56,405 nt of DNA. Source: Planctomycetales bacterium (GTDB lineage: Bacteria > Planctomycetota > Phycisphaerae > SM23-33). This document shows positions 15,936 to 17,786 of this stretch, piece by piece. The position numbers were made by a program, and so were the translations under genes. The notes below the pieces were generated by a model that saw nothing but the letters and a program-made list of their open reading frames with translations, made no database searches and was not told the origin of the DNA. Position 1 is the first letter of the stretch. Every line of letters begins with the position of its first letter. The DNA lies in the NCBI GenBank assembly GCA_030612725.1, contig JAUWNJ010000019.1, forward strand, positions 1-56,405, written 5' to 3'.

Positions 15936-16002
15936 AGGTTAGAGTATGACCTTGGGCTTGTAGCAACGCGAAGCCTGACCTCTAACCTGTAACCTCTAAC
16001 CT
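15936..16002. repeat. Inverted repeat with ACCTNTA heptamers upstream of proS
   Basis: AGGTTAGAG (15936-15944) pairs with CTCTAACCT (15993-16001). The right side is a tandem heptamer array: ACCTCTA ACCTGTA ACCTCTA ACCT (15978-16002). The element ends 12 bases before the proS start codon, so it would form a stem in the proS leader mRNA. Confidence 0.65.
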
Positions 16003-16013
16003 AAAGGTAAAAC

Positions 16014-17786
16014 ATGCGTTATAGTCAGTTGCTTATCCCGACAGTCAAAGAAGTTCCCGCCGATGCCGAGATTCCCTCGCATCGACTGATGATTCGCGCG
16101 GGGTTTATCCGCAAGGTCGCTTCCGGGACTTATACCTATCTGCCGCTGGGGCTGAAGATGCTGCAAAAGGCGGCCCAGATCGTCCGCGAAGAGATGAACG
16201 CAGCCGGCGCGCAGGAAATCGCTATGCCGATCCTCCAGCCAATTGAACTGTGGCAAAAAACCGGACGCGATATCGATTACGGCGAGACAATGTGCAAGTT
16301 CACCGACCGTCACGGCAGGGAAAACGTCCTGGCCCCAACGGCTGAAGAAGTCGTTACCACACTGGTAGCCGGCAGCGTTCGCTCGTATAAGCAGTTGCCG
16401 CTGAACCTCTACCAGATTCAGACGAAATTCCGCGACGAGTTCCGCCCGCGATTCGGCGTACTCCGAAGCCGGGAGTTCCTGATGAAGGACGCATACTCCT
16501 TCGACACCGACATCACCGGACTCGAAGCGACCTATAAGAAGATGTACGAAGCCTACTGCCGGATTTTCGACCGCTGCGGGGTGAAATACGTCGTCGTCGA
16601 GGCAGAGAGCGGGCCCATCGGCGGCTCGGCAAGCCACGAATTCATGGCCCCCTGCCCGACCGGCGAAGACATCATCGTCCACACCGAAGACTACTCCTAC
16701 GCCGCAAATATCGAAAAAGCCGAAGTGGATAGTAGCACGGGCGTCTCGCCCGTGCAGCCCGACACGGGCGAGACGCCCGTGCTACCCATGAAAGAAGTCC
16801 ACACGCCCGGCGCGGGAACCATCGAGCAGGTCTGCGATTTCCTGAAAACCAAACCCGAAGAGATGATAAAGACGCTCATTTGCACCGACGGTTCGCAGGC
16901 AATCGTCGCGGTCATTCGCGGCGACCACGAACTGAACGAAGCCAAACTCAAATCAGCCGCCGACGTGAACCATATCGAACTGGCAGACGATGAGACGGTT
17001 CGTAAAATTTCCGGTGCGGCTACCGGTTTTGCAGGCCCGATGGGAATGGCAGGCAAGCCCGGCAAGGTAATCATCGACCACTCCGTCGCAGCCATGCCCG
17101 CAGGTGTAGCCGGGGCGAACAAGGCGGATTATCACGTTCGCAACGTCGTTCCGGGGCGGGATTTCCCGCTTGAGGGCGATAATGTAATCGTCGCTGACAT
17201 TCGCAATGCCGTCGAGGGCGATGCGCGAAACGGCAAGCCGTTGCAATTCTCGCGCGGTATCGAGATTGGGCACGTCTTCAAACTTGGCACAAAATACAGC
17301 GAAAAACTCGGCGCGACCTATCTCGACGAAAACGGCAGCGCAAAGCCTTGCGTCATGGGATGTTACGGTATCGGAATCAATCGCATAATCGCAGCCGCTA
17401 TCGAAATGGGCAACGACAAGAACGGATGTATTCTACCGCCGGCAATCGCACCGTTCGAAGTAGAGGTGATGATCCTCAACAACGACAGCGCCGAAGTAGT
17501 GGCAGAGGCTGAACGGATTTACAACGAACTGGCCCAGGCCGGAGCCGATGTCCTGCTTGACGACCGCGACACCCGCGCGGGCGCGAAATTCAAGGATGCC
17601 GACCTTATCGGAATCCCCCTGCGAGTAGTCGTAGGCGAGCGGGGACTCAAGGAAGGCAACGTCGAAATCAAACGACGAACGGATGATAAACCGACGATGG
17701 CGGCTGCGACCGAAGCAGTGGCTGAAACGTTAAAAATCCTGGGCGAATTGAAATCCGCAATCCGCAATCCGCAATCCGCAATTTAG
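16014..17786 (+). CDS. proS: Prolyl-tRNA synthetase with repeat-derived insert and tail
   Basis: The protein has 590 residues and is a bacterial-type ProRS, charging tRNA-Pro with proline. The class II core is clear: FIRKVASGTYTYLPLGLKML, motif 2 region RDEFRPRFGVLRSREFLMKD, and motif 3 region CVMGCYGIGINRIIAAAIE. The editing (INS) domain occupies about residues 260-410 and the anticodon-binding domain about 490-580. Two oddities stand out. A perfect inverted repeat of exactly 54 bases (16732-16785) adds about 18 residues (SSTGVSPVQPDTGETPVLP) in the linker before the editing domain. The last residues, KSAIRNPQSAI, are encoded by a heptamer tandem repeat. Both are probably tolerated surface additions. 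Confidence 0.97.
   Translation: MRYSQLLIPTVKEVPADAEIPSHRLMIRAGFIRKVASGTYTYLPLGLKMLQKAAQIVREEMNAAGAQEIAMPILQPIELWQKTGRDIDYGETMCKFTDRHGRENVLAPTAEEVVTTLVAGSVRSYKQLPLNLYQIQTKFRDEFRPRFGVLRSREFLMKDAYSFDTDITGLEATYKKMYEAYCRIFDRCGVKYVVVEAESGPIGGSASHEFMAPCPTGEDIIVHTEDYSYAANIEKAEVDSSTGVSPVQPDTGETPVLPMKEVHTPGAGTIEQVCDFLKTKPEEMIKTLICTDGSQAIVAVIRGDHELNEAKLKSAADVNHIELADDETVRKISGAATGFAGPMGMAGKPGKVIIDHSVAAMPAGVAGANKADYHVRNVVPGRDFPLEGDNVIVADIRNAVEGDARNGKPLQFSRGIEIGHVFKLGTKYSEKLGATYLDENGSAKPCVMGCYGIGINRIIAAAIEMGNDKNGCILPPAIAPFEVEVMILNNDSAEVVAEAERIYNELAQAGADVLLDDRDTRAGAKFKDADLIGIPLRVVVGERGLKEGNVEIKRRTDDKPTMAAATEAVAETLKILGELKSAIRNPQSAI
16732..16785. repeat. Perfect 23-bp inverted repeat inside proS
   Basis: Arms 16732-16754 and 16763-16785 are exact reverse complements with an 8-base loop, CAGCCCGA. 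Each arm is itself partly palindromic (CACGGGCGTCTCGCCCGTG). The total of 54 bases equals 18 codons, so the proS frame is kept. No second copy was seen in the window. Confidence 0.92.
17753..17782. repeat. ATCCGCA heptamer tandem repeat at the proS 3' end
   Basis: Four tandem copies of the 7-bp unit ATCCGCA, plus AT, encode the final residues SAIRNPQSAI and run to the TAG stop. Because 7 is not a multiple of 3, the unit is read in three frames. The complementary heptamer occurs at 3483-3500. Confidence 0.85.

Follow-up and report, generated by a model that had tools for sequence, protein, structure and literature searches.

A probable REPIN in frame within a planctomycete proS gene, and RAYT transposases embedded in host genes of its relatives

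Introduction

RAYTs are usually single-copy, seemingly domesticated transposases, and how they persist is an open question. Inteins and the yeast WHO elements are cases in which a selfish enzyme gene is maintained in or at an essential gene.

GTAG-tagged REP units and their doublets, the REPINs, have the same anatomy as the element described here (Bertels and Rainey 2011, PMC3116915; Di Nocera 2013, PMC3733652), and in-frame GTAG REP doublets inside genes, including those of tRNA synthetases, are already known, the PVC group included (Di Nocera 2013, PMC3733652). The RAYT/TnpAREP genes of REPtrons have been described as free-standing, with median lengths of 148–325 aa depending on the subclass (Quentin 2018, PMC6006769; PMC8266576), and the few unexpectedly long proteins in each subclass were discarded as gene fusions or annotation errors (Quentin 2018, PMC6006769). 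Rickettsia palindromic elements (RPE) are likewise palindromic repeats lying in frame within protein genes (PMC3733652); they are CGTC-tagged (RPE-4, RPE-6) or longer (RPE-1) and have no known transposase, whereas the repeats described here are GTAG/GTGG-tagged and are accompanied by RAYT elements in relatives.

We focus here on an inverted repeat within proS, the prolyl-tRNA synthetase (ProRS) gene, of a Planctomycetales bacterium. The window, that is, the whole stretch of DNA analysed, comprises 56,405 nucleotides (assembly GCA_030612725.1, contig JAUWNJ010000019.1, positions 1 to 56,405 of the forward strand). The repeat resembles REPINs and GTAG REP dimers in its GTAG head, imperfect palindrome, inverted doublet, high copy number and in-frame members. 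It differs from them in that one identical doublet is found only in tRNA-synthetase genes (proS and two valS sites), and in that one of those valS sites is the site of a whole RAYT element in other genera. The RAYTs of these relatives share with REPtrons the HuH and catalytic Tyr domain and the flanking REPs in inverted orientation, headed by GTAG/GTGG; in the window's class, on the other hand, one clade consists mostly of members in long open frames, which lie within host genes in the cases examined.

Results

Anatomy of the repeat in proS

A sequence-only reading of this DNA had described a perfect 54-base inverted repeat with 23-bp arms, in frame in proS, and had taken it for an amplified palindromic element upstream of the editing domain. 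Both descriptions hold: the arms are verified at the positions given in Table 1, with 100% complementarity over 23 nt each and 8 nt between them, and the copies in the genome and the positions of the domains agree with the rest. Each arm consists of GTAG followed by a small imperfect palindrome, CACGGGCG-TCT-CGCCCGTG, and the arms face each other, so that two units in inverted orientation make up one hairpin. As RNA, the segment has a predicted folding energy of −51.9 kcal/mol, compared with −20.2 ± 2.9 kcal/mol in shuffles (z = −11). The catalytic, editing and anticodon domains of ProRS flank the repeat on both sides.

Table 1. Coordinates of proS and of the repeat within the window
Feature	Position	Strand	Details
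proS, prolyl-tRNA synthetase (ProRS), host gene of the element	16014..17786	+	590 aa ORF, complete gene
Left REP unit	16732..16754	+	GTAG head 16732-16735; hairpin stem CACGGGCG/CGCCCGTG, TCT loop
Spacer CAGCCCGA, 8 nt	16755..16762	+	identical in valS copies
Right REP unit	16763..16785	-	inverted, identical to left unit; GTAG head outward
Codons 240-258 (SSTGVSPVQPDTGETPVLP), predicted to be a disordered linker joining catalytic core and editing domain	16731..16787	+	from pLDDT and secondary structure
ProRS editing (INS) domain, just downstream of the element	16803..17153	+	PF04073, residues 264-380

The linker of ProRS and of its relatives

In an AlphaFold2 model of the window's ProRS (mean pLDDT 87), pLDDT falls below 50 at residues 242-253, and residues 233-259, which lie between the catalytic core and the editing domain, have no secondary structure; on this model, the element encodes the predicted disordered linker that joins the two. 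Relatives have a native linker of 15-20 residues at the same place, most of which the element has replaced. The earlier statement that the repeat adds about 18 residues thus has to be corrected, since the segment does code for about 18 residues but the net gain over relatives is only about 2-7.

Alignment of ProRS proteins, a check that had been proposed together with the original description, found the insert missing from distant proteins and from G003 of the same genus (L074); the relatives have other linkers there, which rules out a conserved ProRS feature. The sister species G001 (L073/L118), on the other hand, has the same element in proS with perfect arms, its 8-base spacer being reverse-complemented relative to the gene, and L081 carries, between matching flanks at the same linker, a REP doublet of another sequence family. 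In a ProRS tree the window groups with L118, while L081 and L074 are not resolved. The suggestion of a recent amplification holds in part: the repeat family has been amplified, but the proS copy is common to the sister species, in opposite spacer orientation. Within proS, we infer that the element most likely does no more than serve as a near-neutral linker peptide. Separately, the ProRS editing domain of L118/L073 is strongly diverged and has an extra ~85-95 residues while the N-terminal part is ~95% alike to that of the window, which looks like a domain swap.

The REP family in the genome and the reading frame

The sequence-only reading had also called for further copies to be sought in the genome. 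In the window's genome of 3.16 Mb, GTAGCACGGGCGTCTCGCCCGTG is found 51 times when up to 3 mismatches are allowed, distributed over about 34 sites; read backwards, as a control, the sequence is found 0 times. The 19-mer named in that reading is found at 0.06 sites per shuffle of the window at up to 3 mismatches. Unit heads in the genome are GTAG, as in the window's element, GTAA and a few other variants. Across the 35 family genomes the REP reaches up to 315 copies, and the reversed control is 0 in all 35.

Of the 34 or so REP sites, about 14 fall in frame within long ORFs, and for 9 of these the host gene is recognisable: proS, valS, purL fused to purS, a glutamate-synthase-like oxidoreductase, a tetraether-lipid-synthase-like radical SAM protein, a family 4 glycosyltransferase, an NAD(P)H-hydrate dehydratase, an epimerase and the N-terminal part of a POR gamma-like subunit. 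An exact multiple of three had been read as a sign of selection for the frame. The length of 54 nt is indeed such a multiple, but as a sign of selection it is weak: other REP doublets or groups in coding genes of this genome measure 79, 55 and 52 bp, so that flanking changes must restore the frame, and, since several in-frame doublets have lengths not divisible by three, it is the net frame on which selection acts. We therefore reject the length itself as the main reason why the frame is kept. In the six frames, stop codons number 0 in GTGG-headed and 1 in GTAG-headed REP units, and an argument from unusually stop-free units is too weak to use.

An identical doublet in tRNA-synthetase genes

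The exact 46-nt core, comprising both hairpins and the spacer, was sought in the 35 family genomes at up to 3 mismatches. Five matches were found, all perfect, all in the window's genus and all in tRNA-synthetase genes, namely proS in G000 and G001, valS site 2 in G000 and G002, and valS site 1 in G001. Site 1 permits a direct comparison within the genus, being filled in G001 (WYMKYPLAESVEV-RSTGVSPVQPDTGETPVLR-YITIATTRPET) and empty in G000, G002 and G003 (WYMKYPLAESVEIEGKTIEHITIATTRPET in G002). At its three tRNA-synthetase sites the doublet has flanks unrelated to each other and has replaced part of the host sequence, and is thus not a clean insertion. Were two further sites placed at random, the chance of both falling in tRNA-synthetase genes would be ~2.5e-4, a value that assumes, generously, that such genes make up 1.6% of the genome and that survival bias for tolerant loops would raise. 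As a side observation, simple repeats and REPs occupy the same loop at valS site 2: in G001 and G003 (L258, L260), AATTTCC tandem repeats, read as ISNFQFPISNL, stand where the window's genome has the REPIN.

RAYT transposases inside host genes

A search of the family for Y1 transposases turned up matches whose frames are very long; that of G017 encodes a complete valyl-tRNA synthetase (ValRS) into which a RAYT is inserted, with inverted REPs of the window's family at either end of the RAYT. The same architecture recurs in many genomes: valS site 1, which carries the doublet in the window's genus, holds a whole REP-RAYT-REP in other genera of the class. Here, between the YPL and TVATTRPETM motifs of ValRS, 234-331 aa holding the RAYT take the place of the 8-13 aa present when the site is empty, in frame and with no stop codon, so that the whole gene is open. 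In each genome that was checked, including the single-contig genome G263, no valS other than the interrupted one was found.

Further RAYT hosts include a C-terminal site and a third region of ValRS, LeuRS, IleRS (two regions), EtfB, DinG helicase, RdgB/Ham1, glycine dehydrogenase (GcvP), Eco57I-type and other DNA methylases and a DUF1156-like protein, this last name and those of some methylases having been assigned by reading the sequence. In the examples scanned, the insert has Pfam/NCBIfam domains of the host before and after it. Inverted repeats, mostly of REP type, stand at the two sides of 44 of the 51 RAYT loci examined, and at both ends of the embedded RAYTs L190, L191, L194 and L198 they are REPs of the window's family. 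Of 52 RAYTs, 50 have the HuH motif and 49 the catalytic Tyr motif. With the NCBIfam model for REP-associated tyrosine transposases, NF047646 (cut-off 80 bits), L193 (94.4) and L284 (95.4), which are the LeuRS and RdgB cases, exceed the cut-off, and the other five scanned, L190, L191, L198, L269 and L297, score 61.6-76.4, below it. A HINT splicing domain was not found in the embedded-RAYT proteins by Pfam and NCBIfam scans (E <= 1e-5 and 1e-10), and the RAYT appears to be retained as an extra domain within the host protein.

For the RAYT part, most measurable pairs give a dN/dS of 0.08-0.23 and one pair gives 0.41, with synonymous changes saturated in several pairs; by this measure, the embedded RAYTs are under purifying selection. 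A tree of 52 RAYTs, picked mainly for long frames and thus no measure of how often RAYTs are embedded, needs 18 host or site changes and has strongly clustered labels, which fits inheritance in place combined with repeated moves into new host genes. In L289/L291 (valS of G294/G143) the embedded RAYT parts resemble each other far more closely at silent sites (pS 0.23) than the host part does (pS 0.74), as if the RAYT had moved between species at the same site.

Frequency of embedding and the link to the REP family

The RAYT profile was matched in 91 of the 397 genomes of the window's class, which is probably Phycisphaerae. Among the matches listed, full-length ones in frames of >= 700 aa make up 35/54 in the class and 12/80 in the rest of the phylum (Fisher p = 4e-9). 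All but one of the best 32 class matches (31) are in open frames of 471-1583 aa, and those examined lie inside host genes. The REP is more numerous in those family genomes that have this RAYT type (Mann-Whitney p = 4e-4, genome relatedness not corrected for).

A profile search of the window's own genome (96% complete) found no RAYT of matching type; it may have been lost or overlooked, or a different RAYT may act in trans in its stead. A RAYT flanked by the window's REP was sought in the window's genus as well, and none was found among the Y1 loci examined, some of which have contig ends close by.

Discussion

Sequence itself shows the anatomy, copy number, frame and shared sites of the element, as well as the embedded RAYTs, their single-copy hosts and the purifying selection. 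With GTAG-headed REP arms and 51 near copies, the 54-bp repeat is very probably a REPIN, formed by two inverted GTAG-headed REP hairpins, one of the non-autonomous mobile elements that RAYT (single-tyrosine HuH) transposases mobilise.

Other origins have to be weighed against this one. A hairpin selected as a regulatory element of the proS mRNA, a translational pause or attenuator kept for its function, would agree with the very stable predicted RNA structure and with the conservation of perfect arms in the sister species, and the same doublet in valS does suggest a bias towards tRNA-synthetase genes. Perfect arms, however, arise simply because two consensus REP units are joined, members of this REP family are found in many unrelated genes as well as outside genes, and at this linker G003 of the same genus lacks the element and L081 has a different REP family; we thus regard a regulatory function as quite unlikely. 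It is also unlikely, in our view, that the REPs spread through recombination or gene conversion between existing copies with no RAYT involved. The lack of a matching RAYT in the window's genome, the inverted spacer between sister species and the other REP family between the same flanks in L081 would all be in line with such a process, but it does not account well for one doublet at three tRNA-synthetase sites with unrelated flanks, for REPs of the same family flanking RAYT genes in relatives, or for REP numbers that follow the presence of the matching RAYT type.

Perfect inverted repeats can also come from amplification or assembly, and with a draft assembly of 65 contigs a fold-back chimera or misread sequence had to be considered. 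This is refuted by independent assemblies and has a negligible probability: the same in-frame element is present in one of them (L118, apparently the same contig as L073 in G001), doublets occur in valS of three assemblies, and the frame is open on both sides.

Taking the repeat as a REPIN, we propose that a RAYT copied it into the proS and valS genes. Most insertions into coding DNA would be purged, and the survivors would be those that preserve the net reading frame and lie in surface linkers. Once inside an essential gene, an insertion would be retained, because a frameshift, a stop or a loss would kill the host, and essential genes would in this way provide a safe harbour for the element. 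A wider proposal, to which we give about even chances, is that the RAYT lineage of this class lives inside essential genes: stop-free REP-RAYT-REP elements in surface loops of tRNA synthetases and other core enzymes would always be translated with the host protein, could not be lost or silenced unless the host died, and would seed REPINs at the same and at other tRNA-synthetase positions, such as that in the window's proS, a retention resembling that of inteins but with no splicing. As in inteins and WHO elements, the embedded RAYT is a selfish enzyme gene in an essential gene; the differences are that Pfam/NCBIfam scans reveal no splicing domain and that the enzyme is a HuH transposase and not a homing endonuclease.

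In the open-licence literature we found no RAYT genes described in frame inside essential genes, or fused to or inserted in tRNA synthetases, although an earlier description is possible. What would be significant is that a RAYT gene is physically locked inside essential enzymes, with host purifying selection also guarding the frame of the transposase. Embedding thus offers a testable answer to how RAYT genes and their REP populations persist, as well as a way for core enzymes to gain new linkers and domains. It also carries a warning for annotation, as a long tRNA synthetase that contains a Y1 domain is probably a genuine protein and not an error.

Other repeats and Y1-like loci

Several repeats of other kinds were observed in the same genes and genomes. 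In the window, a perfect 7-base tandem repeat, AATCCGC, at 17752-17782 (4.4 copies) encodes the C-terminal tail of ProRS, SAIRNPQSAI, which is also present in L118 and L081, and a short tandem repeat, ACCTCTA, lies at 15978-16002, a little 5' of the proS start codon. The 227-aa Y1-like ORF at 1976-2656 of L048, in the window's genome, apparently starts with a LexA-type DNA-binding domain, as judged by eye. Two near-identical RAYTs at ~4490-7830 of L016 have palindromes AATTAAGTGCTCCGTCCCCTTAATT close by, which belong to a different repeat family. In L303, an Eco57I-like methylase of G085, a tandem array of the peptide TQTGMSVLP follows just after the RAYT and apparently consists of repeated REP units, that is, an in-frame REP expansion.
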